The notes below the pieces were generated by a model. The model did not search any database. It worked only from the letters and a program-made list of their open reading frames with translations, and was not told where the DNA came from. From assembly GCA_002050275.1 (NCBI GenBank), contig MWTB01000002.1:103176-167175 (forward strand): a DNA stretch of 64,000 nucleotides, in the 5' to 3' direction. Shown one piece after another: positions 41,091 through 64,000 of this stretch; the stretch's first letter is position 1; each line of letters opens with the position of its first letter. The DNA is from Anaerolineae bacterium UTCFX1 (GTDB lineage Bacteria > Chloroflexota > Anaerolineae > Anaerolineales > Villigracilaceae). A program made the translations under genes and the position numbers.

Positions 41091-41099
41091 GCGGGATGA

Positions 41100-41615: not shown

Positions 41616-43144
41616 TGCAGAAACCTTCTAATTCAAACGGAAATAAAAACAGAAAGTTCACCACCCAAGCCTCCCTTGATTCCTATGTCTGGGGCATTTG
41701 CGACATCCTGCGCCGCTCCAATTGCGCGGGCGCGTTGCAATACGTCCCTGAATTGACGTGGATCTTATTCCTGCGCATTCTGGATGATACCGAAATCCAA
41801 GAAGCCGAACGAGCCGAGGCAGTTGGGGTCAAATACAAACATTCGCTCAAAGCGCCTTATCGCTGGCAGGATTGGGCTGACGCAGAGGGCAAGAAACGCA
41901 TTGAATTGCAGAATGGCGCATTAGGTGCCTTCTTTGGTTTTGTGAACGGCGAGTTATTGCCCTATCTCAAAGGTCTGCGCGATAAACCGAATGCTAATTC
42001 ACGCCAGAAGGTCATCAGCGAAATCCTTTCGAGCATCGAACGTGTGCGCGTGGATACCGAAAAGAATTTTCTGGATGTGCTGGATAAAGTGCATGAAATC
42101 CGCCATGAAAATATTGATACCACGCACATCTTTGCCTTGTCACAAGTTTATGAAGGCTTGCTCCTGAAAATGGGCGAGAAGGGCAATGATGGCGGTCAAT
42201 TCTTTACGCCGCGTGAAGTGATCCGCGCGATGATTCGTACCATCGAGCCGAAGCTTGGCAAGACCATCTACGATCCCTGCTGCGGGACGGGTGGTTTCCT
42301 TGCCCAATCCTATGAATACCTTGATGACAAACTGAAATCAAAAGATGCAACGCCGGATCAAATCGAAACGCTCAAAACCCGTACATTTTACGGGCGTGAA
42401 AAAGAAAACCTGATTTACCCCATTGCCCTGTCCAACCTTGTTTTACATGGCATTGATGAACCGCATCTCTGGCATGGCAATACACTTACGGGGCAAGAAA
42501 CGTATGGCGGCTTATTTCAAGAGTCCCCTTCCCAATTTGATTACATCCTCACCAATCCGCCCTTTGGCGGCAAAGAAGGCATAGAAGCCCAAACGCGCTT
42601 TGCCTACAAAACCCGCGCCACACAAATTTTGTTTTTGCAACACGTAATTGATAGCCTCAAGTCTGGCGGTAAGTGCGGTATTGTTCTTGACGAAGGCGTA
42701 TTATTCCGCACCAACGAAACCGCCTTCATGCAAACGAAGCGCAAATTATTGGATGACTGTGATGTGTGGGCAATTGTCAGCTTGCCAGGCGGTGTATTTA
42801 CAGCCGCTGGTGCGGGCGTAAAAACCAACCTGATTTTCTTTACCAAAGGTAAGCCTACTGAAAAGATTTGGTATTACGATTTATCTGACATCAAAGTCGG
42901 CAAGAAAACCCCGTTTACAGCCAAATATTTTGTAGACTTCTTCAAGTTTCTGCCCACGCGGGCTGATTCCGAAAGAAGTTGGACGGTCACTCGTGAAGAA
43001 ATTGAAGCCAGGAATTTTGACTTGAAAGCAGTCAATCCAAACGCAAAAGTGGATGAAGACACACGTACCCCCGATGAATTATTGGATTTGATCGAGGCTA
43101 AGGGAAAAGAAGTTCAGGAAGCGCTGGCAAGATTGCGTCAGTAG
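41615..43144 (+). CDS. hsdM: Type I restriction enzyme, M subunit (N6-adenine methylase)
   Basis: This protein of 509 residues modifies adenine with SAM. N-terminal HsdM_N-like region (YVWGICDILRRSNCAGALQY, about 20-40), SAM motif I IYDPCCGTGGFLAQS (about 219-233) and catalytic motif IV NPPF (YILTNPPFGGKEG, about 310). Further signatures are FFTPREVIRAM and GGKCGIVLDEGVLF. With hsdR and hsdS it makes a complete type I system. The gene order hsdR-hsdS-hsdM with the toxin-antitoxin pair before hsdM is unusual. Confidence 0.94.
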   Translation: MQKPSNSNGNKNRKFTTQASLDSYVWGICDILRRSNCAGALQYVPELTWILFLRILDDTEIQEAERAEAVGVKYKHSLKAPYRWQDWADAEGKKRIELQNGALGAFFGFVNGELLPYLKGLRDKPNANSRQKVISEILSSIERVRVDTEKNFLDVLDKVHEIRHENIDTTHIFALSQVYEGLLLKMGEKGNDGGQFFTPREVIRAMIRTIEPKLGKTIYDPCCGTGGFLAQSYEYLDDKLKSKDATPDQIETLKTRTFYGREKENLIYPIALSNLVLHGIDEPHLWHGNTLTGQETYGGLFQESPSQFDYILTNPPFGGKEGIEAQTRFAYKTRATQILFLQHVIDSLKSGGKCGIVLDEGVLFRTNETAFMQTKRKLLDDCDVWAIVSLPGGVFTAAGAGVKTNLIFFTKGKPTEKIWYYDLSDIKVGKKTPFTAKYFVDFFKFLPTRADSERSWTVTREEIEARNFDLKAVNPNAKVDEDTRTPDELLDLIEAKGKEVQEALARLRQ

Positions 43145-43148
43145 CATT

Positions 43149-43172
43149 GATCAGTATTTTACTGATCGTGTT
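43149..43172. terminator. Hairpin after hsdM
   Basis: GATCAGTA (43149-43156) pairs with TACTGATC (43160-43167), loop TTT, followed by gtgttta. It separates convergent hsdM and the small minus-strand gene. The T-run is weak. Confidence 0.55.
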
Positions 43173-43366
43173 TATTCTTCAAGCATGTCCGCTATAAATT
43201 CAATAACCTTAGGTTTGTCCTTATTGTCTCGTAGAAGTTGAACTAGGGCATTCCCAATGTAGTATCCCTCTTCGATCCCATACTCGTTATCAGGGATAAA
43301 ACATTGGAAGCGAAGCACCAGGGGTTCTTGTTCGGAGTCGTCAAATTCGTCTTCGGGATTTTCCAT
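43172..43366 (-). CDS. Small acidic protein
   Basis: This protein of 64 residues is strongly acidic (MENPEDEFDDSEQEP at the start). It is not recognised. A GAGGAAAAATG arrangement on the minus strand supports the start at 43366. It is the last of three same-strand genes (403, 175 and 64 residues). A small acidic partner is common in toxin-antitoxin and defence operons; that is only a pattern. Confidence 0.55.
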   Translation of the reverse strand: MENPEDEFDDSEQEPLVLRFQCFIPDNEYGIEEGYYIGNALVQLLRDNKDKPKVIEFIADMLEE

Positions 43367-43473
43367 TTTTCCTCGTTTGGTTCCTCACCTTAAGTATAAA
43401 GGTAAATTGGCAGATGGATTAATGGGCTATTGGAGCCAGTCATAGCCTAAATCTCCACAGCGTATGAGTTGGT

Positions 43474-44001
43474 TTACTCTTGTGTATTGTTTTGGTCGCG
43501 TTCCTGAATCATGTCTTCAATTATCATGTCGGCTATCATCCGTATTGCATCATCATACCCTGACTTGATCGAGGATCCTCTTGAGAAGATTTGACGCTCG
43601 TTTTGCTCCAAAAAGTCCAACAATTTCCGTGTCTGCTCGGGTGAAAGATGTAGCGTTGTAATTATCTTTCCATCCTCTAGTGGCGGTGCCTCTTCGGATG
43701 GAGCTGATTTGGATCTTCTTCGCTTCCTAATCGGTATGCTGAACTGGATTTTTTCTTCCGAAACATCCTGCCCTTGCTCTTTCCATTTTTGGTCGCCACG
43801 GAGATGCTCCAGCAAGGTCATGGCATACCAAAAATTCAGATTTATGACTGTTTTCTTAGTTTCATCCCAAACGACTATTCCTTCTGCATACCAAGTGAGA
43901 CCTGGATCGTCTTTTGCCCAGTCTGGCGCTTCGATGTCGAACTTGGAGTAATGTTTTTCATTTAGCCGAATACCCCACGTCGATTCTTGTGATTCGATCA
44001 T
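43474..44001 (-). CDS. Hypothetical protein of a three-gene operon
   Basis: This protein of 175 residues is unrecognised. N-terminal region (about 1-75) is rich in Trp and acidic residues. A basic linker RKRRRSKSAPSEEAPP (about 93-108) and a C-terminal helical region follow (LSPEQTRKLLDFLEQNERQIF, about 119-139; MIADMIIEDMIQERDQ). Its ATG overlaps the stop of the upstream 403-residue gene as ATGA, so the two are co-translated. Function unknown. Confidence 0.6.
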   Translation of the reverse strand: MIESQESTWGIRLNEKHYSKFDIEAPDWAKDDPGLTWYAEGIVVWDETKKTVINLNFWYAMTLLEHLRGDQKWKEQGQDVSEEKIQFSIPIRKRRRSKSAPSEEAPPLEDGKIITTLHLSPEQTRKLLDFLEQNERQIFSRGSSIKSGYDDAIRMIADMIIEDMIQERDQNNTQE

Positions 44002-45209
44002 GGATTACCTCCATTGCAAAAGAACTTTATTTCATCCTCGAGTGCAAGGCATAGCTCATCAATCTTCTGGTCGTCTGCCAAAGTTGAATTTCTGGGTTCT
44101 CTTTCCATTCGTTGTTTTTCGAACCCTTTATGAAGATCATACAATTTTTGCATTGTAGATTCTGGATATTGTGTCTCAAGGTCAGAGTAATCAATTACCA
44201 AGGCTGGAAGAAAGGAATCTTTATTTGAGAAAAGTTTGTAAATGTAGAACTTTCTCCCAATATACGCTACTTGTTTCTCGCCAGTGCATAACTTGGAGAT
44301 CGGCAATGGGGGCTCGTGCTGAGAAAGTAGAAGAGGAGGAAATCTGAGTAAGTAAATGTCCCAGGTTGTCGATCGGAATTTCGAGATCAAACTTTGGTAC
44401 GTAGCTCCCTTTTGGAGAGGAATTAACTTATCAAGTTTCCCCGCAAAATAATGAGCAGCTATCCCCAATTCTTCACCAAAGAGTACACCAAAATTCGTCA
44501 GCGTAAATTCATAAAACGCTTCCATTTTGGAAATGATGCTTTTGTTGCTTGTTTTGTGAATAAGCGCCATTTTTATCAAGGTGACATAGAAAACATTCAG
44601 GTCATCGTGATCAGCGGTCGCCGTTTTTGTATATTCATAATCCTGCCGTGCCATCTCGTTCAGATCTTCAGTGCCAAACTTTTCACAATACTTCTTGAAG
44701 GATTTGCGATCTGGTCTAATTTCTCTCTTCTTTAGGAAATGGCGCTCGTCCATCATATGCAGTGACAAGATACTCTTACTGAATTCCATATACCGGTCAC
44801 TAAAATCGTTGTTCTGATTTTTCCAAAAAGCTTCAAAGGAATAAAAGACAGGATTGTAGTCAACCCCAGTACGAACAAAGTAATCAATAAGGTGAGTGGC
44901 GACCGTTCTTCTGTTGAGTGGCAGTATCTCACGTTGCATGACAAAGCTGTGAAGTAATGACATCACATTGGAATCCAGAATGATCGTAGGTACCAGGGGA
45001 GGAGGTAGCTGACCCATGATAGTCTCATAGCTAATCAGTCGCGGGATTTTGCCGCCAAAAGGATCGATCACTGAAACTGTGAAATCCCCCGATTGAAAGT
45101 CTGGTCCCAAATTTGACGGTTTCCCAAATTCCCAGACTCTGTATGTAGGGTCAGAAGTTAGTATGTGCCTTTTGATTTCGTCGTAGCCTTGGTCAATGCT
45201 CATTCCCAT
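43998..45209 (-). CDS. Putative PIN-like nuclease of a defence-type operon
   Basis: This protein of 403 residues has no known name. A motif TIILDSNVMSLL (about 76-87) resembles the first acidic strand of PIN nucleases (LDxNV). A later STTWDIYLLRFPP (about 288-300) resembles the C-terminal AxD-type helix of PIN-like toxins. The rest is helical with no known domain. It heads an operon (403, 175 and 64 residues) divergent from the STAND nuclease gene and convergent with hsdM. A nuclease role is inferred from two motifs only. Confidence 0.55.
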   Translation of the reverse strand: MGMSIDQGYDEIKRHILTSDPTYRVWEFGKPSNLGPDFQSGDFTVSVIDPFGGKIPRLISYETIMGQLPPPLVPTIILDSNVMSLLHSFVMQREILPLNRRTVATHLIDYFVRTGVDYNPVFYSFEAFWKNQNNDFSDRYMEFSKSILSLHMMDERHFLKKREIRPDRKSFKKYCEKFGTEDLNEMARQDYEYTKTATADHDDLNVFYVTLIKMALIHKTSNKSIISKMEAFYEFTLTNFGVLFGEELGIAAHYFAGKLDKLIPLQKGATYQSLISKFRSTTWDIYLLRFPPLLLSQHEPPLPISKLCTGEKQVAYIGRKFYIYKLFSNKDSFLPALVIDYSDLETQYPESTMQKLYDLHKGFEKQRMEREPRNSTLADDQKIDELCLALEDEIKFFCNGGNP

Positions 45210-45288
45210 GTTTGTCAGGTGATCCTAGAATTGCCTAATTTTACAACGCTTTTTATGCCAAAACCCAAGGGAAATGTTATCCGAGGTG

Positions 45289-45321
45289 TTGACAGCAGAT
45301 AGAATCTACTTAGCATATAAT
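45289..45321 (+). promoter_or_regulatory. Promoter of the STAND nuclease gene
   Basis: A perfect TTGACA (45289-45294) and a perfect TATAAT (45316-45321) lie 21 bp apart. The alternative TAGCAT (45311-45316) gives a 16-bp spacer. A start near 45328 supports ATG 45331 over the upstream in-frame codon at 45274, with little or no leader. Confidence 0.55.
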
Positions 45322-45330
45322 TGGGGAGCA

Positions 45331-48300
45331 ATGGCAAATTTATTAGAAATCACGGGCGATGATATCGCAAAACTTGATGATGCTGCGCTTCGAGAGCTAA
45401 TCGGCTTATTATGCGAAGCGGATTATCGCTCGGAAGGTCTATCTACCAAAGGTATAACTTGGGGAGGTCATCAGGATGCTCCAGATGGCGGGTTAGATGT
45501 TGTTGTGCGATGCGAAGATAATCCTCCCAAGGTTTCCTTTATTCCTAGAAAAGTCACTGGCTTTCAGGTAAAGAAACCTGATATGCCTAAGGCAAAAATA
45601 ATTGCAGAGATGAAGCCAAAAGGCTACTTGCGCGATGAGATAAAAGATCTAATCAAAGAAGGTGGTGCTTATATCATTGTCAGTTCCAGCGGGTCTACAA
45701 GTGACACGGCTCTAAAAAACCGAATTGACGCAATGCGAGAAGCCGTCTCAAAAGAAAGAGGAAATGACAAGCTTATAGTAGATTTCTTTGACCGTAATCG
45801 TATTGCGAGTTGGGTGCGTTTACATTCTGCAATGATATTATGGGTCAGGAATAAAACAGGTCAAGACATCCAAGGATGGAGTTCTTACAATAACTGGGCA
45901 AATGCTCCTGGGGGGATAGAAGAAGAGTACCTTCTTGACAAAGATTTAAGATTATATGATGGGACACAAGCACAACGCAATGCTATATCAATTCAAGACG
46001 GTTTACTTGCACTTCGAATTACCTTATCTGTTCCAAAGGCTTCTGTTCGATTAGCAGGATTGTCAGGCGTAGGAAAGACTCGATTAGTCCAGGCGTTATT
46101 TGACGAAAGAATAGGCTCACAAACACTAAATCCATCACTAGCTTTATATACTGATATTTCCTACAATCCTGAGCCCAGTCCACAGGTGTTTGCTGAACAA
46201 CTTGTCATGAGAAAAACAAGAGCCATATTAATTGTTGACAATTGTCCCCCCGAATTGCATCGCCGATTAACACAAATATGTTCTCAACAAGATAGCAATG
46301 TTAGCTTGCTAACTATTGAATATGACATCAGAGAGGATATACCCGACGAAACAAATGTCTTCAGATTAGAGCCTGCCAGTGAAGAATTGATAGAAAAGAT
46401 AATCAACAAACGCTATCAACACATCAGTCAGGTTGATGCTCACACAATCGCGCATTTTTCGGGTGGAAACGCAAGAATGGCAATTGCCCTTGCGAACACA
46501 GTAAAACGTAATGAATCCCTGTCAGATTTTAGCGATGACGAACTATTCAAAAGGTTGTTTTGGCAAAGACAAAATCTAAATGAGAATTTACTTGTCTCCG
46601 CAGAAGTGTGCTCCCTTGTTTATTCTTTTGAGGGAGAAGATACTCGCTCGGAAAAATCCGAACTTGTTTTTTTAGCAGCTCTGGTAAATAAGACTGGTTA
46701 CGGACTATATAGAGATGTTAGTGTCCTTCGAGAAAGAGACTTAATTCAATCACGCGGTGTATGGAGAGCCGTCCTTCCACACGCAATTGCCAATCGCTTA
46801 GCTAAACGGGCACTTAATGCAATTCCAAAAGATGTATTGATTCAAGCATTTTTCACATGCAAGTCAGAACGCATAATAAGCTCGCTTTCAAAACGTCTTA
46901 GTTATCTTCATGATTGTCAACCAGCAGTTGAGATAGTAAGTGAATGGCTGGCTCCTGACGGATGGTTAGGTAAAGAAAATTGTAACTTTAACCAACTGGG
47001 AATAAATGTATTTAGCAATGTAGCACCTGTCTCCCCAGAAAGTGCTTTGTCAGCAATGGAACGTGCCGCAAATAACGACAAAGAAAATTACTTTCTCGCT
47101 AACAATAATATTTACCGCCGAAATTTTGTAAACATTCTTTCTCACATAGCTTATGACCCTAAATTGTTTAACAGAAGCATAAACCTTCTTACTTGTTTTG
47201 CACTATTGGAAAACAGGAATGAGCACAACAATCCAGCACGAGACTCTTTAAAATCTCTCTTTTGGATTACGCTATCAGGTACTCATGCTTCGGTTGATGC
47301 AAGAGCTGGAGTTATAAAGGATTTGTTAACTTCAGAAGATGAAGATCGCCGACAACTTGCACTGGATCTTTTATTCAGTGCGTTAGAAGCTTGGAATTTT
47401 TACTCATCGCATGATTTTAGATTTGGGGCAAGGCCAAGGGATTATGGGTATCATCCAAAAACTCGAGAGGAAGTCGATTTCTGGTTCAATACCTTTATTA
47501 ATATCTGTACAGATTTGGCACTTTCAAGTCAAACAACAGCCCTAAAAGCAAGAAAATTGCTTGCCGATAAGATGCGAGGCTTATGGACAAAAGGTAGTAT
47601 GTACGAGACTTTAGATAAAGTCGCCCAGAATATTCATAGACAGAAGGCATGGAATGAAGGTTGGCTAGCAGTCCGTGAAATAATTCAATATGACAGCAAG
47701 AGTTTCGATAAAGAAACATCGGAAAGGCTATTTAGGCTGGAAAAAATTCTAAAACCTGCGAATCTTCTAGAGCGTGCACGTGTTTTTGCCTTGAGTAATC
47801 AGTTCGATCGCTTTGATGTAGAGGATGAATTGCTCCAAGAAGATGATGAGTCATCTTCTCGGTTACGTGCTGATAAAATCACACGAGAACTCGGCATTCA
47901 AGTGGCCCAAGACAGTGGCACATTTGAAGCTTTTTTGCCAGAGATTGTTTCCACCTATGCATCGAGGCTTTATATCTTTGGGCAAGGATTAGCGGACGGT
48001 AGTCATGACAAACAAGCGACTTGGCAAATTTTATATAATCAATACAAGATGACAGAACCAGAAAAACGCCAATTTGTTGTCTTGATAGGCTATCTGTCGT
48101 CTTGTGCAGAGAGTGCGCCTGATTTTTACAACTCAACACTTGATAGTCTTGTAAAAGATGAACATCTTGGAATGTGGTTCCCATTTTTTCAAGGAGCTGT
48201 AACAATAGATCAACGAGGTGTTGAACGTTTGCATGAGGCTTTAGACACTGGACATGTTAAGGTGGATACTTTTCGGGATTTAGCTTGGGGACGCCGCCAT

Positions 48301-49170
48301 GAAGCTATAAGCGATGACGACTTAGCTGAGCTTCTTACAAAGCTTCAAAAACATGAGAATGGGGCAGGGGTTGTATTAGACATTTTGCGAATGAGATTCC
48401 ATGAAACGGAAGAAAAACAAATACAACATTCTAAAAAATTAATTGAGTTTGCTTGTGACTTGCTTAAAGAATTTCCATTTGTAAGAAACTACCCTCGATC
48501 CGAAAATACAAGCTATACATTAGCCCAAATAGCTAAGGCATGCTTCATCAGCAAATTTGGTGTTAAGTCTGTTTTAAGTGTATGCGAACACCTCGCAGAA
48601 CTTATTGCAGAGTATCGCATTTCCCCCTTTGAATATACCGAACTATTTAACACGATAGCTCGTATTAAGCCTTCTATTCTTCTCGATGTATTTCTCGAAA
48701 ACAAGAAGAATATCGAAAATTATGCACCTCATTTAGTGTTTAAAGATGGGTTTGATGAGCACAATCACTTTATTGATCAAATTGCAATTGATGATTTGAC
48801 AAGCTGGTGTGAAATTGCCCCCCAAACTCGTTATCCGTTATTAGCGTTAGCTACAAAGCCCTTTTCAAGATCAATTGAAACAAAAGAAGTATCGCTTAAT
48901 CCAATTACTTATCTACTCTTTAGCCAAGCCCCTAATTTGCCCATTGTTCTTCAATACCTATCCAAATCATTGCTCCCAACATCATGGAGTGATTCTTTAG
49001 CCGAAATCCTTTCAAAGAGGGCGGAACTTCTAAAAGCATTGTTTGAACACGAAAATGAAGAGATAAAATCTTGGGCAACTGAACAATATTCTTTTCTGCA
49101 AAAAAAGGCAATAGAAGCGCGGGATGACGAAGAGAAACGCAACCGCCTTTATAACGAAAGATTTGAATGA
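45331..49170 (+). CDS. Nuclease-STAND NTPase (Avs-like candidate defence protein)
   Basis: This protein of 1279 residues has three parts. The N-terminal domain has APDGGLDVVVR (about 50-60) and VTGFQVKK (about 75-82), the D..QxK core of Mrr/Cap4-type PD-(D/E)xK nucleases. The middle is a P-loop NTPase with Walker A LAGLSGVGKTRLV (about 240-252), Walker B RAILIVDNCPP and a GGNARMAIALA sensor-like motif. The C-terminal about 800 residues look like helical repeats with no clear sequence periodicity. Nuclease, STAND and repeat sensor in this order match antiviral STAND (Avs) proteins, which detect phage proteins and degrade DNA. Role is inferred. Confidence 0.75.
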   Translation: MANLLEITGDDIAKLDDAALRELIGLLCEADYRSEGLSTKGITWGGHQDAPDGGLDVVVRCEDNPPKVSFIPRKVTGFQVKKPDMPKAKIIAEMKPKGYLRDEIKDLIKEGGAYIIVSSSGSTSDTALKNRIDAMREAVSKERGNDKLIVDFFDRNRIASWVRLHSAMILWVRNKTGQDIQGWSSYNNWANAPGGIEEEYLLDKDLRLYDGTQAQRNAISIQDGLLALRITLSVPKASVRLAGLSGVGKTRLVQALFDERIGSQTLNPSLALYTDISYNPEPSPQVFAEQLVMRKTRAILIVDNCPPELHRRLTQICSQQDSNVSLLTIEYDIREDIPDETNVFRLEPASEELIEKIINKRYQHISQVDAHTIAHFSGGNARMAIALANTVKRNESLSDFSDDELFKRLFWQRQNLNENLLVSAEVCSLVYSFEGEDTRSEKSELVFLAALVNKTGYGLYRDVSVLRERDLIQSRGVWRAVLPHAIANRLAKRALNAIPKDVLIQAFFTCKSERIISSLSKRLSYLHDCQPAVEIVSEWLAPDGWLGKENCNFNQLGINVFSNVAPVSPESALSAMERAANNDKENYFLANNNIYRRNFVNILSHIAYDPKLFNRSINLLTCFALLENRNEHNNPARDSLKSLFWITLSGTHASVDARAGVIKDLLTSEDEDRRQLALDLLFSALEAWNFYSSHDFRFGARPRDYGYHPKTREEVDFWFNTFINICTDLALSSQTTALKARKLLADKMRGLWTKGSMYETLDKVAQNIHRQKAWNEGWLAVREIIQYDSKSFDKETSERLFRLEKILKPANLLERARVFALSNQFDRFDVEDELLQEDDESSSRLRADKITRELGIQVAQDSGTFEAFLPEIVSTYASRLYIFGQGLADGSHDKQATWQILYNQYKMTEPEKRQFVVLIGYLSSCAESAPDFYNSTLDSLVKDEHLGMWFPFFQGAVTIDQRGVERLHEALDTGHVKVDTFRDLAWGRRHEAISDDDLAELLTKLQKHENGAGVVLDILRMRFHETEEKQIQHSKKLIEFACDLLKEFPFVRNYPRSENTSYTLAQIAKACFISKFGVKSVLSVCEHLAELIAEYRISPFEYTELFNTIARIKPSILLDVFLENKKNIENYAPHLVFKDGFDEHNHFIDQIAIDDLTSWCEIAPQTRYPLLALATKPFSRSIETKEVSLNPITYLLFSQAPNLPIVLQYLSKSLLPTSWSDSLAEILSKRAELLKALFEHENEEIKSWATEQYSFLQKKAIEARDDEEKRNRLYNERFE

Positions 49171-53734: not shown

Positions 53735-54499
53735 ATGACTACAGAAACAACATCTCCATTGGTTTCTTCAAATGACCGAATGAATATATTTATTCACGCA
53801 TTATTATTTGTGATAGGTTTCTCGCTGGTGTTCATTGTAGGTTGGGGCGGATCAGTGACCTTGCTGGGAAGGATGTTTGGAACTTACAAACAATTTATCG
53901 CACAGGTTGGCGGAATAGTTGTCATCATATTTGGGTTGGCAACGCTGGATGTGATTCGCATTCCCTGGTTCTATGCGGACACACGTGCCCAGTACTCGGG
54001 TCAACGCGGAACATATGGCGGTTCGGCGTTGATGGGCATCTTTTTCGCCGCTGGCTGGAGTCCATGCATCGGCGCAACGCTCGGCGCGATATTGACAATG
54101 GGACTCAGTCAGCAAACGGTTGGACAGGCAATGTGGCTGGCATCGGGATATTCGCTTGGGCTGGGGATCCCATTTCTGGTGATGGCTCTGGGACTTGAAC
54201 GTGCATCAGGTTGGATCAAACGCATGCGACCGTATCAGAAATATTTCAAACTTGCTAGCGGATTGTTTATCATTGCGATCGGTGTTTTGTTGCTGACAAA
54301 TACCATGAGCCTGATCGCGATCTGGGCTTTCAAGAATGGATATTTCATTGAGTCATTCGCCAATTATGCCGCGGCGCCGACGTATATCACGGCGATCATT
54401 GCAGGGTTGTTATCATTCATCTCGCCGTGTGTGCTGCCTTTGGTACCTGCTTATCTTAGCTATCTCAGCGGGCATACATTGAGAGCTTCTTCTTCGTGA
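53735..54499 (+). CDS. ccdA: CcdA-type thiol-transport protein with permuted halves
   Basis: This protein of 254 residues has about six membrane helices. It carries both CcdA Cys motifs but in swapped order: the second-half motif FFAAGWSPCIGATLGAIL comes first (Cys 111), and the first-half motif LLSFISPCVLPLVPAYLSYLSG is at the C terminus (Cys 232). CcdA moves electrons from thioredoxin across the membrane to reduce thiols outside, for cytochrome c or copper-site assembly. Its neighbours, a rhodanese lipoprotein and copper proteins, fit. Circular permutation is seen; function is inferred from the family. Confidence 0.82.
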   Translation: MTTETTSPLVSSNDRMNIFIHALLFVIGFSLVFIVGWGGSVTLLGRMFGTYKQFIAQVGGIVVIIFGLATLDVIRIPWFYADTRAQYSGQRGTYGGSALMGIFFAAGWSPCIGATLGAILTMGLSQQTVGQAMWLASGYSLGLGIPFLVMALGLERASGWIKRMRPYQKYFKLASGLFIIAIGVLLLTNTMSLIAIWAFKNGYFIESFANYAAAPTYITAIIAGLLSFISPCVLPLVPAYLSYLSGHTLRASSS

Positions 54500-54506
54500 G
54501 GTGTAA

Positions 54507-54929
54507 ATGAGAAAATTTGTTTTTACTGTGTTCCTTTCGGTTCTGTTTCTTTCTGCCTGTCAAAGTAAGGCGATTGATCTGTCAGGAGAAAAAATTGATG
54601 TGAACGGTGGTTCATACAGCAACATCGATTCACAACAACTGAACACGATGTTCAAGGATAAGGATTTTGTTTTAGTGAATGTCCATATCCCATTTGCAGG
54701 CAATATCCCGAACACGGACATCTCCATTCCGTATGACCAGATTACTGAGTCGCAATATCTATCACAATTGCCGACTGATAAGAATGCAAAAATCGTTCTT
54801 TATTGCCGCAGCGGACGCATGAGCCAGATCGCGGCAGAAGAACTTGTGTCATTAGGATACACCAACGTTTGGAATCTCAAGGACGGTATGGTAGATTGGG
54901 AACAGGCTGGATATTCTCTCGAGAAATAA
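54507..54929 (+). CDS. Rhodanese-like lipoprotein
   Basis: This protein of 140 residues has a lipoprotein signal ([10 protein letters not shown]) and a rhodanese domain (about 42-138) with active-site loop LYCRSGRMS (Cys about 102). It would transfer sulfur or act in thiol redox outside the membrane. The gene follows ccdA by 7 nt and so is co-transcribed. CcdA could keep its Cys reduced; that link is inferred. Confidence 0.87.
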
Positions 54930-55002
54930 AGTAATACGGCTTCACTGAGAACAGTCTATAACAAGGATAATGGTCAATTCAGGACAAGAAAGGAAAATAA
55001 CA

Positions 55003-55182
55003 ATGACCGATACTGTACACGATCCTGTTTGCCACATGGATATTGATCCCACCACTGCTGCGGGCATATCCGAATATAAGGGGCAGACTTATTACTTCTG
55101 TTCGCCTGGATGCAAAGCTTCTTTCGATAAAGAGCCTGAGAAGTATTTGGGTAAGGTAGATGAGCAGGAGCATCACCACTAA
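55003..55182 (+). CDS. YHS-domain protein
   Basis: This protein of 59 residues is a single YHS domain: DPVCHMDIDPTTAAG (about 6-20), then YYFCSPGCKASFDKEPEKY (about 31-49). The tail is His-rich (EQEHHH). AAGGAAAA precedes ATG 55003, which is preferred over in-frame ATG 54970. YHS domains with CxM and FCxxxC bind heavy metals such as copper and are found beside P-type ATPases, as here. Confidence 0.88.
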   Translation: MTDTVHDPVCHMDIDPTTAAGISEYKGQTYYFCSPGCKASFDKEPEKYLGKVDEQEHHH

Positions 55183-55293
55183 GTCCTTTATGTTTACTGT
55201 CTCAACGAATCTCCTTCAATAACTCTTTATCATGCCTTTACAGATCCTTTATATACATCTGATACATTTGGATCATCAAGAAAGGATAAAAAA

Positions 55294-55653
55294 ATGAAAA
55301 AAGTTAATTGGTGGATAGTAGGAGTTGCTTTCATCCTTGTCGTCACCCTGCTCTTCGGAGGCGGCATGATGAGTGGATGGGGCTATCGCGGCTATGGCAT
55401 GATGGGCGGCTACGGCGGACACATGAGTTGGGGCTACTCTCCCTTTGGCTGGCTCGGAATGGGTGTCGGTATGCTCTTCATGTGGCTCATTCCCATTGGT
55501 ATCCTTGCTCTTGTCGTTTATGGCATAACTGCACTCGCACGAAATTCGGGCAACAACACATCCACCACTTCCCAGTCTCCCTGCCCTAATTGCGGCAAAG
55601 GCACACAAGCTGATTGGCAAACTTGTCCTTACTGCGGCACATCGCTAAAGTAA
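55294..55653 (+). CDS. Small membrane protein with C-terminal zinc ribbon
   Basis: This protein of 119 residues has an N-terminal helix (about 6-25), a Gly/Met/Tyr-rich loop (MMSGWGYRGYGMMGGYGG), a second helix (about 54-82) and a C-terminal zinc ribbon (CPNCG, CPYCGTSLK). SHOCT-like small proteins of this type often lie in metal or heavy-metal operons. AAGGATAAAAAA precedes ATG. Function unknown. Confidence 0.72.
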   Translation: MKKVNWWIVGVAFILVVTLLFGGGMMSGWGYRGYGMMGGYGGHMSWGYSPFGWLGMGVGMLFMWLIPIGILALVVYGITALARNSGNNTSTTSQSPCPNCGKGTQADWQTCPYCGTSLK

Positions 55654-55683
55654 TTCAAATCGCTTATATAATAACTGAACTGT

Positions 55684-55713
55684 AAATAGCCTGTCGAAAA
55701 GATAGGCTATTTT
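55684..55713. terminator. Hairpin terminator
   Basis: AAATAGCCT (55684-55692) pairs with AGGCTATTT (55704-55712), followed by T-rich DNA. It ends the transcript before copB. Confidence 0.75.
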
Positions 55714-55795
55714 GCTTATATAGACACCGGTAAGAGCGCACTATTCACAAAACGACCATTACACTAGAATGATGTTTAGTGGAAAGGAGCTTTAC

Positions 55796-58009
55796 ATGTC
55801 TGAATCACAACACAAACACGATGAGCATGTTTCTCATAAGAAGAATAACGAAATGCAATCGCACACAATGGATCACTCCATGCACAAGGAACATATGGGG
55901 CACAATGCACCCGACAATTCCATGCACGAAATGCATATGGATCACACGCAACATAAAAAGGAGATGGCTTCTAACGAGCATATGGATCATGCCAGTCATG
56001 CAGGACATGACGAACATGCAGGTCACGGAACTGACCATACAGGACATGAGCAGATGTTCCGTACCCGCTTCTGGGGGAGTTTGCTGCTTAGCATCCCTGT
56101 GTTGGTCTTCAGCTCTACGCTTCAGAATTGGTTGGGATTCAGCATTCCAGAGTTTACAGGTAGTAGCTGGATTCCATTCATCTTCTCACTTGTCATCTTT
56201 GCCTACGGCGGGATTCCCTTTATCAACATGGCAAAACCCGAAGTCCGTAATCGCGAACCAGGGATGATGACTCTTATCTCGCTGGCAATCTCCGTGGCGT
56301 TGATCTACAGTGTTGCGGCGCAGCTTTTCGGATTGGGTGAAGGCTTCTTCTGGGAACTGGTCACACTGATCGACATCATGCTGCTCGGTCACTGGTTGGA
56401 GATGCGCAGCGTGCGTCAGGCATCGGGTGCGTTGAACGAGCTTGCCAAACTAATGCCTGATGAAGCTGAGCTTGTCACTTCGGATGGAAATACAAAAAAG
56501 GTTTCGGTGGAGGAACTCAAGAACGATGACGTTGTCCTTGTCCGTCCAGGTGCGAGCGTCCCTGCGGATGGACAGGTTGTGGATGGCGAGTCGAGTGTCA
56601 ATGAGTCGATGATCACGGGTGAGTCAAAGCCTGTGGATAAGGGAGTCGATTCGAAGGTCATAGCAGGAACGATCAATGGGGATGGCAGCCTGCGTGTGCG
56701 CGTTACAGCCACAGGCGATCAAACGGCGTTGGCAGGCATCATGCGTTTGGTAGATCAGGCACAGAAGTCGAAATCCAAAACGCAGTTACTTGCCGATCAG
56801 GCGGCAGGCTGGTTGTTCTATGTCGCATTATCCGTCGCGGCAGTTACTGCCATTGCATGGATCATCGCGGTCGGCTTCAACATAGATGTGTTGAAACGCG
56901 TGGTTACAGTCCTCGTGATTGCCTGTCCGCACGCGTTGGGCTTGGCTGTTCCGCTGGTTGTTGCCATCACCACCTCGATGGGTGCGCGCAATGGCATTCT
57001 CGTCCGCGATCGATTGGCACTTGAAGCCGCTCGCAACATCAATGTTGTTGTCTTCGACAAGACGGGCACGTTGACGGAAGGCAAATTCGGCGTGGTTGGA
57101 ATCGCTACAACAAAAGATTGGGATGAGAACAGTGCGCTCGCGCTGACATCGGCAATCGAAGGTGACTCGGAACACTTGATCGCGCGTGCCATTCGAGAAG
57201 CTTCAAACGACCGAAAAGTTGATCTGCCTTCGATCAGCAATTTCTCCGCGATAAAAGGGCGCGGTGTACAAGCGACATACGATGGCAAATCCGTGTATGT
57301 GGGCGGACCGCGACTTTTAGAGATTCTAAACGTTTTGCCATCAGAAAACCTGATGAGTTTCGCGGACGAAGCTGGAAAGAAATCTCAATCGGTGGTGTAT
57401 CTCGTTGCTGACAATGAAGTGGTCGCGGCCTTTGCTGTGGCAGATAAGATCCGTTCGGAAAGCAAACAAGCCGTGAAGCGACTGCACGATATGGGCGTGG
57501 AAGTCGCCATGTTGACCGGTGACAGTCGTCCTGTGGCTGAGGCGGTCGCATCCGAGTTGGGCATCGATCATGTCTTCGCCGAAGTCCTGCCTGAACACAA
57601 GGATCTGAGGATTTCGGAACTACAAAAACAAGGGAAACAGGTGGCTATGGTCGGCGATGGTGTCAACGATGCGCCTGCGCTCACGCGCGCCGATGTAGGC
57701 ATCGCCATCGGCGGCGGCACGGATGTAGCAATCGAATCGGCAGGCTTGATCCTGGTGAAAAGCAATCCATTGGATGTAGTGAAGATTATTGCTTTGAGTC
57801 GCGCCAGCTATAACAAGATGATCCAAAACCTATGGTGGGCAGCAGGATATAACATCATTGCTCTTCCGCTGGCAGCAGGCATTCTGGCACCGTGGGACAT
57901 TCTGCTCTCGCCTGCATTCGGTGCTGTGTTGATGTCGCTCAGCACGATTGTCGTTGCCATAAATGCACAGTTACTACGCAGGACATCCCTGTCCTTCGTA
58001 ACCCAGTGA
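55796..58009 (+). CDS. copB: CopB-type copper-exporting P-type ATPase
   Basis: This P1B ATPase of 737 residues exports copper from the cytoplasm. The N terminus (about 1-85) is very rich in His and Met ([29 protein letters not shown]), typical of CopB. Transmembrane motif CPH ([14 protein letters not shown], about 375) replaces CPC, the P1B-3 signature. The phosphorylation loop DKTGTLTEG (Asp about 422), TGES in the actuator, and [12 protein letters not shown] are present. ATG 55796 is used because AAAGGAG lies 8 nt upstream. It sits with YHS proteins and small membrane proteins. Confidence 0.93.
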
Positions 58010-58020
58010 AAGGAGAAACG

Positions 58021-58221
58021 ATGGACAAATCCTGGTGGCATCCACTTCGTTATTTGTCGGCATTCCTGATCGGTGTTATTTTGTTTTGGATGATTGGAAG
58101 GGATTTGTTTGATTTCATATCAATGCCGATTTTCATGGCAGGTTTGATCGGTGTTGCGGTGGCTGTATTAGCTTTCGCTGCATGGACCATCTACTACAAT
58201 TCACATCACAAGGAAAACTGA
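58021..58221 (+). CDS. Small membrane protein
   Basis: This protein of 66 residues has two helices (about 8-28 and about 34-56) and ends NSHHKEN. AAAGGAG at 58010-58016 precedes ATG 58021, 11 nt after copB. It is likely a small partner or subunit of the copper export system; no family is recognised. Confidence 0.65.
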   Translation: MDKSWWHPLRYLSAFLIGVILFWMIGRDLFDFISMPIFMAGLIGVAVAVLAFAAWTIYYNSHHKEN

Positions 58222-58224
58222 ACG

Positions 58225-58425
58225 TTGAGCGAAGCAACCGCGACTTCATTGCCTGAATACAGGACTGCCTGTGGGGGGACCATTAAAGACCCGACGAAGT
58301 ATCCCAGCGCGGACTATCAAGGCGAGAGCATCTATTTCTGTACCCACGCCTGCCTGCGAGTATTTAAAGAAGACCCCGACGCTTTTATGACAGGCGATGT
58401 GGAGCACCCCACAGAAGAAGATTAA
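58225..58425 (+). CDS. YHS-domain protein, second copy
   Basis: This protein of 66 residues (TTG start 58225, AAGGAAAA upstream) has a YHS-like pattern: YRTACGGTIKDPTKYPS (about 12-28) and IYFCTHACLRVFKEDPDAF (about 36-54). It differs from the first YHS protein by losing the CxM of DPVCxM. It probably binds metal in the cytoplasm. It closes the copB transcript. Confidence 0.75.
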   Translation: MSEATATSLPEYRTACGGTIKDPTKYPSADYQGESIYFCTHACLRVFKEDPDAFMTGDVEHPTEED

Positions 58426-58547: not shown

Positions 58548-58991
58548 ATGTTGTCAGCAACACGCAAACTCTTCGTCTTTTCCATCATCGTAGTTTTACT
58601 GTCGACAGCAATTTCGTCCTGCTCTGCTCAATACGAATCCATCGATCTGCACATGATGTCAATGGATCAAATGCCTGCGGAGGTGCAGTCTTCGCCTATG
58701 ACAGTGCAAGCTGCTTACCAATTTGCTGCGGCGAATCCAGATGTGATGAAAAACATTCCTTGTTATTGTGGATGTGGAAACATTGGACACACATCCAACT
58801 ACGATTGCTACGTGTCAAATGTCGATGCTAACAGCACCATTACCTTCGACAACCACGCCCTCGGTTGCTCCATCTGTGTGGACATCACCCAGGATGTGAT
58901 GCGCATGTTGAAGGATGGCAAAAGTCCGCAGGATGCCAGAACATATATAGACGCGACCTATTCCAAGTACGGACCGTCTAACATACCCTAA
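58548..58991 (+). CDS. PCYCGC-motif secreted protein
   Basis: This protein of 147 residues has a signal peptide (about 1-25, with a possible lipobox ISSCSA) and a domain with PCYCGCGNIGHTSNYDC (about 67-83) and LGCSICVDITQDV (about 105-117). This is the PCYCGC family, known near heavy-metal and cytochrome genes in Gram-positives. The many Cys suggest metal or disulfide chemistry. The next gene starts 4 nt after its stop. Confidence 0.85.
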   Translation: MLSATRKLFVFSIIVVLLSTAISSCSAQYESIDLHMMSMDQMPAEVQSSPMTVQAAYQFAAANPDVMKNIPCYCGCGNIGHTSNYDCYVSNVDANSTITFDNHALGCSICVDITQDVMRMLKDGKSPQDARTYIDATYSKYGPSNIP

Positions 58992-58995: not shown

Positions 58996-59439
58996 ATGAG
59001 CCCGCGCTTCCTTCTTCTTCTCTTTGTGATGGCGGGACTGGTAGTGGCTTTCGCGCCTTTGCCAGTCCAGTCTGTCACGCCTCAAGAGCGGACCATTGAT
59101 ATTGACGCGCGACAATATACCTATTCTCCTTCTGAGCTTCAAGTCAACAAAGGTGACACGGTGACCATCAAACTCATCAGCACTGATGTTGTGCATGGAC
59201 TCTATGTGGATGGCTACGATGTTTCTATCGAAGCCAACCCAGGGCAAACCGCAACCCTGACCTTCACCGCGGATAAGGCAGGCTCCTTCCGCTTTCGATG
59301 TAACGTCACCTGCGGAGCGATGCATCCGTTCATGATCGGGAAACTGACTGTTGGTACAAATAACTGGTTGTATCGTTCCATCGGTCTTGCAACCCTGGCG
59401 ATATTTGGAACTGTTATCTCCATAAAACAAAAAGCATAA
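58996..59439 (+). CDS. CuA-site cupredoxin with C-terminal membrane anchor
   Basis: This protein of 147 residues has a signal sequence (about 1-27), a cupredoxin domain (about 33-118) and a C-terminal helix (about 123-143). CuA ligands are all visible: His67 in DVVHGLYV, then C102-x3-C106-x3-H110-x2-M113 in CNVTCGAMHPFM. This is the binuclear copper site of cytochrome oxidase subunit II and nitrous oxide reductase. No catalytic subunit is in the window. The protein likely passes electrons outside the membrane. Confidence 0.85.
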   Translation: MSPRFLLLLFVMAGLVVAFAPLPVQSVTPQERTIDIDARQYTYSPSELQVNKGDTVTIKLISTDVVHGLYVDGYDVSIEANPGQTATLTFTADKAGSFRFRCNVTCGAMHPFMIGKLTVGTNNWLYRSIGLATLAIFGTVISIKQKA

Positions 59440-59446: not shown

Positions 59447-60778
59447 ATGGCAAAGATCGAACTTAACCGTAATCCCTTCATAGAGAACGCCCTCAAATCT
59501 CGTTACCCGCAACTGGCGGTTTTTATCGTGATGCTGGTGGGATATATCTTTGCCATCCTTGCGGGACTCATCGGCACGCCAGTTGGGAGTCACAACTTCA
59601 GTATCGTCTTTGTGTGGATCGCATGGTGGGCTGTCTTGATCCTTGTAGCAGTTCCGTTCTTCGGACGTGGATGGTGCGCGGTCTGTCCGATTCCGCTTCC
59701 AGGTGAGTGGCTACAACGCGGTGCGATGCTTGCCCCTCCTAATAAACGACCCAAGTGGCTTAACCTGCGTGTGCCAAAGATGTTCCGCAACATCTGGCTG
59801 CAAAACATCTCCTTCCTCTTGCTTGCCCTTTTTAGCAGTGTCCTGCTCACCACTCCAAACATCACAAGCATTGTCCTGGCTGCCATGCTCTTCGCAGCGA
59901 TTGGATTGAGCACAATCTTCGAGCGCCGCGCCTTTTGTCGTTATCTCTGCCCCGTTGGTGGATTCATCGGGCTCTACTCACAAACTGCCCCCATTGAATT
60001 AAGGATCAGAGACAAACAGGCCTGTGTGAAGTGCGAAGGTAAGCCCTGCTATAACGGCTCAGAGGTTGGCTATGGTTGTCCGTGGGATGTCTTCCCTGGT
60101 GGGTTGACGAAGAACACATATTGCGGTCTGTGCATGGAATGTATCCGCACCTGCCCGCACGATAATATCGCGGTCAACCTGCGTCCGTTTTCTGCCGACC
60201 TTGCCAAGCCAACCACTCGCATGGATGAAGCCTTCAAGTCATTTATTATGCTCGGCTCGGCAATGATCTATGCGGGTGTTTTGTTGGGTCCGTGGGGGAT
60301 GCTCAAGGATGCGGCATACAATGTCGGTTCAAATTCTTGGTTTGTTTATGCGGGTGTATTTCTCGCCATTATCTTTGGAGTGCTTCCTGGTTTGTTCTCA
60401 CTAGGTATTTACCAAAGGCAAAATAACATTGCCTTCAAACAGCGCTTCGCATCTCTTTCCACTGCCCTTATTCCTCTCGGCATGATGTTCTGGGTCGCGT
60501 TCAGTTTGTCGTTCGTTCTGACCAACGCATCCTACATCTTAACCGCCCTTTCCGATCCGCTTGGGTTGGGATGGAATCTCTTCAGCACGGCAAACACAGC
60601 TTGGCAGCCGATGCTTACCTCCATTCTCGCGCCTGCACAGACACTGGCACTGGTCGGCGGGTTGATCTGGTCAGCACGCACCGCACAGAAAGCCGCCAAC
60701 GAATCGTGGACGTCGTCTATGCCTGTCATTGTGTATTGTTTTCTCCTCACCTCGGTCATGCTCTGGTTGCTGTTATGA
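59447..60778 (+). CDS. NapH/NosR-like polyferredoxin membrane protein
   Basis: This protein of 443 residues has about ten membrane helices and cytoplasmic Fe-S motifs. WCAVCPIPLP (about 76) and CRYLCPVGG (about 168) are the CxxxCP pattern of NosR/NapH/RdxA proteins. A double 4Fe-4S ferredoxin motif follows (CVKCEGKPCYNG, about 187-198; CGLCMECIRTCPHDN, about 227-241). Such proteins carry electrons from the quinol pool to extracytoplasmic acceptors. It sits between the two CuA proteins. Confidence 0.86.
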   Translation: MAKIELNRNPFIENALKSRYPQLAVFIVMLVGYIFAILAGLIGTPVGSHNFSIVFVWIAWWAVLILVAVPFFGRGWCAVCPIPLPGEWLQRGAMLAPPNKRPKWLNLRVPKMFRNIWLQNISFLLLALFSSVLLTTPNITSIVLAAMLFAAIGLSTIFERRAFCRYLCPVGGFIGLYSQTAPIELRIRDKQACVKCEGKPCYNGSEVGYGCPWDVFPGGLTKNTYCGLCMECIRTCPHDNIAVNLRPFSADLAKPTTRMDEAFKSFIMLGSAMIYAGVLLGPWGMLKDAAYNVGSNSWFVYAGVFLAIIFGVLPGLFSLGIYQRQNNIAFKQRFASLSTALIPLGMMFWVAFSLSFVLTNASYILTALSDPLGLGWNLFSTANTAWQPMLTSILAPAQTLALVGGLIWSARTAQKAANESWTSSMPVIVYCFLLTSVMLWLLL

Positions 60779-61752
60779 AACGCGCGGAACTTCTCTCAAG
60801 GCTTATCGTCACAGTGGCGGTTGTCGGTGTGGTCGGAACGCCGCTCTATCTTTGGTCACGCACGCCCATCATCCACGCGCGCATGGCGGAGAACGGCGGA
60901 TGGACTCCCGATGTCATCCAGGCTGAAGCAGGTAAGCCATTACATTTGAAACTCACCTCCGATGATGTGATGCACGGCTTTGCAGTCGGTCAGATGGATA
61001 TGGAGGCAGTGAGTGTCGAGCCTGGCAAAGTCACTGACATTACGCTGAATTTTGAGAAGCCTGGGATATACACTTTTTATTGCACGCGCTGGTGTGGACT
61101 CAACCATTGGCGGATGCGCGGCACGATAGAAGTTAGCGGTTCAAACACGGACCTCAAACCTGCCTCACCGCCTTTATATGTTTCCCTCAACCTCGACATT
61201 GATGCTCCGCACGATGCAACAGTTGTTCCAAACGGTCAGCCGTCAGTAAGCAACGGTCAGTCTTTGGCAATGGATAATTCCATATCTTTGTCTCATGAAG
61301 AGTATTTGGCAAGTTCACCATTTGAGGTGTTCGATGGCTTGAAGAATTCTTCACTGACAGAGGAAGAGCGTTGGGATATTGTCGCCTACCTCTGGCAATC
61401 CAATACTACACCTGATGCTCTTGCAAATGGAAAACAACTCTATGCCCAGAACTGTGCCGCCTGTCATGGCGAGAACGGTGCAGGTGATGGCGTTTTTGCA
61501 GATGACCTTGCTGCTACAGGTGAAGCATCCATGCAAACAATGAGCGGCGCAGAAAACATGATGATGCAAACTCCCGTTGACTTTACAGACTCAGCACGGA
61601 TGCTTGGCGCAACCCCTGCGTTGTTACAGGGAAAGATCCTGCGTGGTGGCATGGGTACAGGCATGCCGATGTGGGGATCGATTTTTACCGAAGGACAAAT
61701 CTGGGATCTGATCGCTTATCTCTATTCATTCCAGTTTGAATATCCAAAGTAA
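60775..61752 (+). CDS. CuA cupredoxin fused to cytochrome c
   Basis: This protein of 325 residues has a signal anchor (about 8-28), a cupredoxin domain with a CuA site and a cytochrome c domain. CuA ligands: His67 in DVMHGFAV and C103-x3-C107-x3-H111-x2-M114 in CTRWCGLNHWRM. The heme site is CAACH (about 226-230, NCAACHGENGAGDG), with an axial Met candidate in GMGTGMPMWG. ATG 60775 overlaps the upstream stop as ATGA. The architecture recalls caa3-type subunit II with a fused cytochrome c, but there is no oxidase catalytic subunit nearby. Confidence 0.88.
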   Translation: MKRAELLSRLIVTVAVVGVVGTPLYLWSRTPIIHARMAENGGWTPDVIQAEAGKPLHLKLTSDDVMHGFAVGQMDMEAVSVEPGKVTDITLNFEKPGIYTFYCTRWCGLNHWRMRGTIEVSGSNTDLKPASPPLYVSLNLDIDAPHDATVVPNGQPSVSNGQSLAMDNSISLSHEEYLASSPFEVFDGLKNSSLTEEERWDIVAYLWQSNTTPDALANGKQLYAQNCAACHGENGAGDGVFADDLAATGEASMQTMSGAENMMMQTPVDFTDSARMLGATPALLQGKILRGGMGTGMPMWGSIFTEGQIWDLIAYLYSFQFEYPK

Positions 61753-61761
61753 GGAGGCTCA

Positions 61762-62241
61762 ATGAGTAATAAACAAAACAGACAAAAAAGCAGAAAGCAT
61801 AAACAGAAACAAAATTTTCCGTGGCTGCTGCTTGTGTTGGGAGGCGTCTTCATAGCTGTCGCAGCGTTTCTCTTTGCACGGCAGGGAGGAGGCGATGGAG
61901 GCGGAATCCCGTCCATTGCGGTGGACCAACAGAAGATCGATTACGGTGATGTCAAATTTGGCGTTGAGAAGACCTTTGCCATCAAAGTCACCAACACAGG
62001 TGACGGAACATTACGTTTTAAAGAAGAACCCTATATCCAAGTATTGGAGGGGTGCTGACCGCCTCAACTGACCATCGGTTCGATGGTACTCAAACCTGGC
62101 GAAAGTACGATCGTCGAGTCAAGTGTATTTATGATGCACGAGGGTATGGATGGTCCACATGACTTTGCGGTGCATTTGAAAACAAACGACTCAACTAATC
62201 CTGATCTGATTGTGCATGTTCTATCCAATTGGATACCGTGA
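61762..62241 (+). CDS. DUF1573-like membrane-anchored protein with in-frame UGA (candidate selenoprotein)
   Basis: This protein of 159 residues has a basic N terminus, one membrane helix (about 19-40) and an immunoglobulin-like DUF1573 domain (about 52-157) outside the membrane. At codon 99 (62056-62058) there is a TGA after Cys98: LEGC-U-PPQLTIG. The frame continues for 60 clearly coding codons (MMHEGMDGPHDF) to TGA 62239-62241. A hairpin with a GGU loop follows the UGA, as in bacterial SECIS elements, so I read the TGA as selenocysteine. A nonsense mutation is the alternative. AGGAGG at 61752-61757 precedes ATG 61762. Confidence 0.75.
62059..62096 (+). promoter_or_regulatory. SECIS-like hairpin after the UGA codon
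   Basis: ACCATC (62071-62076) pairs with GATGGT (62082-62087), leaving loop GGTTC (62077-62081); a further G-C pair can close inside. Counting from the UGA, the loop GGU lies at +19 to +21. In the E. coli fdhF SECIS as I remember it, the loop GGU is also at +19 to +21. Flanking bases do not extend a long lower stem. SelB would bind the loop. Confidence 0.65.
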
Positions 62242-62305: not shown

Positions 62306-64000
62306 TTATTTCTGTTTCAACAGTCTTGCTGAGTTTCCCATAATGCCAATGTCAGGCAGGGATTGTGCTGCGGCGGCAAGAACGGGGGGCAGGAAGCCGA
62401 ATGCTGCAAGGGTCAGCCCAATGGCATTATAGGCTGTCGTGAACAGCAAGTTCATCTTTACCACTCTCATCGTTCGTTGGGCGATCTTCAATATCTCGGG
62501 CACCAGGTTCCAGTCTTCGCGCATCAGGGCGATATGAGCTGCTTCGATGGCAACGTCCGTGCCTGCCGCACCCATCGCAATGCCAATATCCGCTTGAGCG
62601 AGTGCAGGTGCATCATTGACACCGTCGCCGATCATGACCACCACATGTCCCTTCGCCTGATATTCCTTCACGATATCGATCTTATGTTCAGGCAAAAGAT
62701 TGGCTCGGTAGGAAACACCCAGTTTTTCCGCCAGTGTGGATGCGGCCCGTTCATTGTCTCCCGTAAGCAATTCGATGTGTCCAATACCCAGTGTGCGGAC
62801 ATACTTCAGAGCGGTTGGAACTTCCTCTCGCAAAGTGTCTGCCGCCGCAAGCACGCCGACGAGTTCATGATCGCTTTCCATGAATAGAAGTGTTTTTCCC
62901 TGCGCTTCAAGGTCAGACGCAAGATTTAACGTTTCAGCAGAAGGAATCATGCGACGATTGCCGACTGCAATGCGGCGTGCGTCTATGAGAGCACGCACAC
63001 CCTGTCCAGGCACCGATTCAAAGTCTTGCGGTTCGTTCAGGGAAATATTTTCCGCACCTGCCAACCTGCGGACTGCCTCTGCCAGTGGGTGTTCCGAATA
63101 ACGTTCAGCAGATGCAGCGATGGAGATGATTTCAGTACGTGAGAGTCCATTCAAGGAAATCACATCGGTTACCTGCGGCTGACCGAGGGTGAGTGTGCCC
63201 GTTTTATCGACCAATAAAACATCGGCACGTGCAAGTAGTTCGAGATATTTGCCGCCTTTGATCAGCAAGCCACGTTTAGCGCTGGCGCCGACGGATGCGA
63301 GCATGGCAATAGGAGTTGCCAACGCGAAGGAACAGGAACATGCCACTAGTAATACTGCCGCAGTGGAAAGTGGGTTGCGAGTAATAAGAAAGGTTATCGC
63401 GGCGATGGCAGCAACAACAGGCAGATACCAGGCGCTGAATTTGTCGGCAATGCGTTGAACGTCGGCGCGATGCCCTTCGGCTTCTTCCACCATCTTGACC
63501 ACGCGCCCAAAGGTGGTATCCACGCCAATCCGCTCAGCGCGGATACGCAGGCTGCCAAGTTTGGCAATCGTCGCAGCGTAGACATGAGTCCCGTTTGCGG
63601 CTTCGATAGGCATGGACTCACCCGTGATGGCGGATTGGTCAACAGTCGCTTGTCCACTGATGACTTCTCCATCGACGGCGATCTTTTCACCTGGACGCAC
63701 AATCACAATATCACCGACTTTCACCTGTGCGATCGGAAGTTCGATCTCCAAGCCCGTTTGTTCCACGCGTGCGGTCTGTGGTGCAAGTGAGGTTAGTTCC
63801 TTAACAGCGCGGCGGGCGCTTTCAGTGGTGAAGTTCTCCACGTAATCACCGATACGCATGAAGACGACCACCAGTGCCGCTGTAGCCCATTGACCAACGA
63901 CCAATGCGGCAATCACACCCAGAGTCATCAACGTGTGCGAGATGATCTGGCGATTGAGCGTGGCACTGATGACGTTCTTGAAGACGGGATACCCACCCGC
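62306..64000 (-). CDS. Heavy-metal P-type ATPase with CSC motif (5' end outside the window)
   Basis: This partial protein has 564 residues up to the window edge; its N terminus lies beyond 64000. It shows actuator TGES, phosphorylation motif [21 protein letters not shown] and the helix near the metal site VACSCSFALATP. The usual CPC or CPH is replaced by CSC, so the metal specificity cannot be read from family rules. The frame is open upstream of the TTG at 63931 (GGYPVFKNVISATLNRQ), which shows the gene continues. It is convergent with the copper and selenoprotein operon. Confidence 0.88.
   Translation of the reverse strand, partial: AGGYPVFKNVISATLNRQIISHTLMTLGVIAALVVGQWATAALVVVFMRIGDYVENFTTESARRAVKELTSLAPQTARVEQTGLEIELPIAQVKVGDIVIVRPGEKIAVDGEVISGQATVDQSAITGESMPIEAANGTHVYAATIAKLGSLRIRAERIGVDTTFGRVVKMVEEAEGHRADVQRIADKFSAWYLPVVAAIAAITFLITRNPLSTAAVLLVACSCSFALATPIAMLASVGASAKRGLLIKGGKYLELLARADVLLVDKTGTLTLGQPQVTDVISLNGLSRTEIISIAASAERYSEHPLAEAVRRLAGAENISLNEPQDFESVPGQGVRALIDARRIAVGNRRMIPSAETLNLASDLEAQGKTLLFMESDHELVGVLAAADTLREEVPTALKYVRTLGIGHIELLTGDNERAASTLAEKLGVSYRANLLPEHKIDIVKEYQAKGHVVVMIGDGVNDAPALAQADIGIAMGAAGTDVAIEAAHIALMREDWNLVPEILKIAQRTMRVVKMNLLFTTAYNAIGLTLAAFGFLPPVLAAAAQSLPDIGIMGNSARLLKQK

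Follow-up and report, generated by a model that had tools for sequence, protein, structure and literature searches.

Gene organization of the locus

The window, the whole stretch of 64,000 nucleotides that was analysed, carries on its forward strand a frame (61762..62241) with a single internal stop, a TGA at 62056..62058 that directly follows a TGC codon (62053..62055). The frame ends in a second TGA (62239–62241), and with the internal TGA read as selenocysteine (Sec) it would encode 159 residues with Sec at position 99, behind Cys98. A Shine-Dalgarno sequence, AAGGAGG (61751..61757, forward strand), overlaps the stop codon of the gene before it, an arrangement that is the same in orthologues. 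The original prediction, made from this sequence alone, that a TGA stands in frame behind a Cys codon inside a continuous domain was confirmed, with one internal stop in the frame. Standard annotation and gene callers would truncate the gene at codon 98.

Upstream, the forward strand encodes in a conserved order a PCYCGC or CYCXC-family protein in its Cys form (58548..58991; PF13798 at 2.3e-29, NF041379 below cut-off), a cupredoxin with the CuA motif CNVTCGAMHPFM (58996..59439), a NapH/MauN-like polyferredoxin membrane protein (59447..60778; PF12801, TIGR02163 below cut-off) and a CoxB-like CuA domain (CTRWCGLNHWRM) fused to a cytochrome c with the motif CAACH (60775..61752; PF00116 and PF00034). 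Among the 43 loci with enough flanking sequence, these genes were found in 41, 33, 36 and 40 cases respectively. The ligand motif CxxxCxxxHxxM is present in all 40 alignable orthologues of the cupredoxin and in 48 out of 54 of the CuA-cytochrome c protein. A P1B-type metal ATPase gene (62306..63931, reverse strand; PF00122 and PF00702), open at the end of the window, converges from downstream and occurs at 15 of 78 loci. The family matches bear out the copper and electron-transfer neighbours that had been proposed.

At six loci (L012, L019, L030, L031, L032 and L034) the CuA ligands of the CuA/cytochrome c neighbour have apparently been lost (TTTPSSLNFWRM); no cupredoxin gene was found at these loci, while the Sec and PCYCGC genes remain. 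In the window, the operon is flanked at 53735–58422 and 62306–64000 by a metal-handling cluster, comprising a DsbD/CcdA-like protein, a rhodanese, two YHS-type proteins, a His/Met-rich P1B ATPase with a CPH motif and the second, converging P1B ATPase.

Conservation of the TGA codon

A scan of genome contigs yielded 53 relatives, all Chloroflexota or Anaerolineales by name save one labelled Pseudomonadota. The Cys98 codon is TGC or TGT in 53 of 53, and the string TG[CT]-TGA-CCN-CCN stands at the site in 52 of them and in the window, at identities down to 37%; the 53rd relative (L053) is frame-broken. The orthologues are collinear with the window gene to its end. When 400 genomes were sampled across the phylum, 24 had a match, and nearly all strong matches carried a single TGA. 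Within the class Anaerolineae the TGA form was found in about 64 of 396 genomes, counted as rows with one TGA and an E-value below 1e-20; the strong matches in the class, too, almost all keep the TGA. No match to the gene was found in the plasmid collection.

The stop-free strong matches of the class included eight genes (L118 to L125), from seven genomes, with Cys (TGC or TGT) at exactly the Sec codon. Their motifs are GCCPP (L118, L120, L121, L125), GCCPQ (L119), GCCPS (L122, L124) and GCCPN (L123), so that the check proposed originally, Cys at position 99 of homologues, came out positive and the predicted motif of two Cys followed by two Pro does occur. Cys was the only sense replacement found at the site. 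A PCYCGC gene adjoins seven of the eight Cys genes.

Were the TGA a real stop, the product would be a 98-residue protein, or translation would re-initiate at the ATG at 62083 and there would be two genes; the two open frames and the position of this ATG, 25 nt beyond the TGA, fit such a reading. It is very improbable: the uninterrupted Cys homologues join both halves and contradict it, the codons between TGA and ATG show the same protein conservation as the remainder, and one beta-sandwich crosses the site. Distant orthologues moreover have Thr, not Met, at the ATG position (VVGSTT) and thus no start codon there. A sequencing error or a pseudogene carries a vanishingly small probability. Broken copies do exist, L053 and L096 (G112:C1:4125080-4125534) being frame-shifted copies of the gene, but the same TGA recurs in dozens of independent assemblies and dN downstream is far below dS. 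On both flanks of the TGA, dN is about 0.06–0.08 and dS about 2.

In a tree from a short alignment, restricted to Chloroflexota and with CGCT proteins of the DUF1573 type as outgroup, the new family split from the latter with a support of 100/99. The Cys label requires at least four changes within the family, and with this outgroup Sec therefore appears ancestral and Cys looks derived at least four times in the sampled tree. It had been proposed that UGA replaces the second Cys of a pair; Cys at the site in homologues agrees with this, but the direction does not, since Sec looks ancestral here.

Two genomes carry both versions. In G507 the Cys gene lies in tandem about 80 nt from the Sec gene, and G613 also has both. 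The Cys copy of the tandem paralogues in G507 (L119; G507:C380, reverse strand, 1701 and 2245) has no hairpin of the kind described below. With Sec and Cys forms occurring naturally next to each other or on a shared contig, the benefit of Sec over Cys would be open to direct test in a protein that is otherwise equal.

Hairpin downstream of the TGA

A hairpin of 7 bp with a GUU loop (62071..62087, forward strand; ACCAUCG-GUU-CGAUGGU) starts 12 nt after the UGA, and its GGU (62077–62079) lies at +19 to +21 after this codon, the position claimed originally. Bacterial SECIS (bSECIS) elements are described as having a loop of 3–9 nt with G in the first two loop positions, a stem of 4–16 bp, a spacing of 16–37 nt and an MFE of at most −7.5 (PMC13188914). 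The window hairpin falls within these limits, with a 3-nt GUU loop, G first, 7 bp, a spacing of 19 nt and −8.7 kcal/mol. Folded alone it is unremarkable (z = −1.64), so the case rests on comparison.

Across 40 distinct gap-free relatives, the stem was paired in 96.4% of cells and compensatory changes, on both sides, were seen at all seven stem pairs. The covariation score was 0.490 against 0.216 (sd 0.021) in shuffles, with 0 of 500 as high, and pairing fell to 17–71% when the partner was slid by one to three columns. Stem variants among the relatives include GUCGUCG/CGACGAC, GUCGUAG/CUACGAC and GUGGCGG/CCGCCAC. Six to seven pairs are kept in all 78 Sec genes (62 distinct over the first 48 nt), and across the Sec genes the distance from the UGA to the GGU or AGU apex is constant. 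The eight Cys genes retain one to three pairs, close to the chance mode of two to three; a random position at these loci reached all seven pairs in 0.15% of cases and six of them in 1.4%. The original prediction had named relatives with a sense codon and an unconserved hairpin as grounds against itself, and what was found is that relatives keep the TGA, others have Cys, and the hairpin is kept by compensation.

The 14 codons that follow the UGA had a median dS of 0.33, compared with about 1.9 before and 2.1 beyond, synonymous change being depressed across the hairpin only. Together with the low dN in both flanks, this points to constraint on both the RNA and the protein. None of the Rfam families matched the hairpin, as is expected from the diversity of bSECIS elements.

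Selenocysteine machinery

The genome from which the window derives has selA (543 bits), selB (347 bits), a tRNA-Sec with anticodon TCA and selD. Each of the four components that were to be looked for, selA, selB, selC and selD, is thus present, and a lack of sel genes, named originally as an objection, did not materialize. SelD of this genome (L069, C12:190832-191764) is itself a selenoprotein, with an active site TCAGUASKL read through a TGA; its hairpin is not obviously similar to that of the window.

In the class, selA was found in 56 of 64 Sec-form genomes and in two of five Cys-only genomes (Fisher p 0.026). The eight Sec-form genomes without selA are all incomplete MAGs. SelB scored over the cut-off in six of these; of the other two, G706 has tRNA-Sec only and G506 has none of selA, selB and tRNA-Sec. 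The closed Cys-only genome G683 showed no selA match at 1e-60, and SelB and tRNA-Sec were not over the cut-off. Phylum-wide co-occurrence with selA is weakly informative, because 331 of the 400 genomes have this gene.

UGA readthrough is known in bacteria, and the codon might on that ground be read as Trp or be leakily suppressed instead of specifying Sec. This is extremely improbable, as the sense replacements are Cys only and a covarying hairpin and the Sec machinery are present. The window gene and several orthologues also end in TGA, so that TGA acts as a stop in the host organism. By all sequence criteria, namely UGA conservation, Cys replacement, hairpin covariation and machinery, the UGA is recoded to Sec, and 61762..62241 almost certainly encodes a selenoprotein. 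SelB with Sec-tRNA(UCA) would read the UGA at codon 99, the hairpin would direct the insertion, and the product would hold a vicinal Cys98-Sec99 pair.

Relation to DUF1573 and other selenoproteins

The protein had been predicted to be DUF1573-like. A distant likeness stands, but membership does not, with a score of 19.6 bits for DUF1573 (PF07610) against a gathering score of 26.1. In an alignment with ordinary DUF1573 proteins, the GC of the window protein matches the second half of the CGC motif, and the residue opposite Sec is the Thr of CGCT. The column of the first Cys is usually Glu in the new family, and is Glu in the window, and the CGC motif is absent. Ordinary DUF1573 proteins (CGCT; e.g. 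L091 and L126 to L131) are distant homologues with the same GC pair and a following PG[EQ], but they lack Sec, the hairpin and the MMHEGM loop, and form a separate clade.

The claim that the family is not among known selenoproteins holds for the new family, which is absent from the 119-entry 2026 catalogue, NCBIfam 20.0, deep-Sep and the literature searched (main open texts; other databases may hold entries). It does not hold for DUF1573 as such, for which a selenoprotein with a UGC motif has been catalogued from an Olavius algarvensis symbiont (PMC13188914, Table 1); the same motif of a DUF1573-family selenoprotein is given in PMC9312934. The motif UGC puts Sec at the first Cys of CGC, a position at which the window protein does not carry it. 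The two proteins share a broad type of Ig-like extracytoplasmic domain and carry Sec in the same loop, but there Sec takes the place of the first Cys, whereas the window protein retains the second Cys and has Sec one residue further on.

The vicinal Cys-Sec selenoproteins SaoC, SaoL, HgcA, MbdU and KCU-star share the CU motif, and no relation in fold or sequence to them was found; several selenoproteins with a CU motif are metal-linked (PMC13188914). The operon partner, of the CYCXC family OS_HP4 or PCYCGC (PF13798), has some members elsewhere that are selenoproteins, but it is unrelated in sequence and in its Cys form at the loci studied here. Besides this partner family, no other selenoproteins were found described for such a Chloroflexota operon. 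The gene very probably represents an uncatalogued family of membrane-anchored selenoproteins, widespread in Chloroflexota and located in a conserved copper and electron-transfer cluster. This would add a widespread and deeply conserved selenoprotein family and bring selenium into a Chloroflexota envelope operon that encodes CuA, cytochrome c and ferredoxin proteins.

Protein architecture and possible function

The protein begins with a Lys/Arg-rich N-terminus and a single membrane helix, which a linker rich in Gly connects to a beta-sandwich. The helix (residues 21–41; 61822..61884), seen in the sequence and in the AlphaFold2 model (with low confidence there), is a predicted signal anchor that would hold the protein with its Ig-like domain outside the membrane. 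The beta-sandwich was modelled with a pLDDT above 95 for residues 51–159, as a single domain that spans the Sec site. Sequence and fold matches are to ASH/HYDIN/OCRL/PapD-like (Ig-like) domains, with 26.1 bits for the HYDIN/CFA65/VesB-like Ig family PF22544 (gathering score 25.5). The HYDIN, VesB and OCRL ASH domains share fold and sequence profile, but none has the Cys-Sec pair or the Met/His loop.

Invariant residues in alignment A3 include G97-C98-U99-P100-P101 and M125-H126-x-G128-M129-x-G131-x-H133. The latter lie in a Met/His-rich loop, MMHEGMDGPH (residues 124–133; 62131..62160), of which Met125, His126, Met129 and His133 are invariant and which AlphaFold2 places between strands 115–120 and 131–141. 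Judging from the strand order, loops 97–102 and 121–130 probably leave the same end of the sandwich, and the Cys-Sec loop would then face the Met/His loop (M124, M125, H126, M129 and H133).

For the CuA cupredoxins and the PCYCGC protein encoded next to it, the protein may provide redox or Cu(I) handling: it might reduce CuA cysteines, or hold copper and hand it on. The operon with two CuA proteins and a PCYCGC protein was counted in support, as were the invariant Met/His loop and the confidently modelled beta-sandwich, and a role in servicing copper or CuA has a probability just short of even. CuA service cannot be the sole role, because the Sec gene stays at the six loci where the CuA ligands are lost. 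In fold and ligand spacing, no Pfam or PDB match to a known copper chaperone of the Sco or PCuAC type was obtained, and there is no copper protein among the structural neighbours.

Mammalian thioredoxin reductase carries GCUG, a vicinal Cys-Sec redox motif, and the pair might here act in envelope thiol/selenol redox repair or peroxide reduction that involves no copper, the CuA linkage reflecting no more than a shared respiratory context. Persistence of the gene where the CuA ligands were lost and the DsbD/CcdA-like protein within the window fit this role, which is a substantial possibility, somewhat below an even chance. Against it stand the absence of a thioredoxin fold, the equal invariance of Sec and the Met/His residues beside the site, and the close linkage of the gene to those for CuA proteins and metal ATPases, and copper handling is favoured only slightly over pure thiol/selenol redox. 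The fullest form of the copper reading, in which the selenolate of Sec99, Cys98 and the invariant Met/His loop would bind copper and service the CuA centres, with Sec ancestral and Cys having arisen at least four times, is unlikely.

Nitrous oxide reductase was considered as the purpose of the operon and rejected, the genome having CuA-domain matches only and no full NosZ. Haem-copper oxidases are encoded elsewhere in the genome. Farther upstream in the window (39936–49170), a defence-like island was recognized by eye, with an ImmA/IrrE-type HTH protein, a PIN-like protein, a type I DNA methyltransferase subunit and an NTPase-like protein of 1298 residues.
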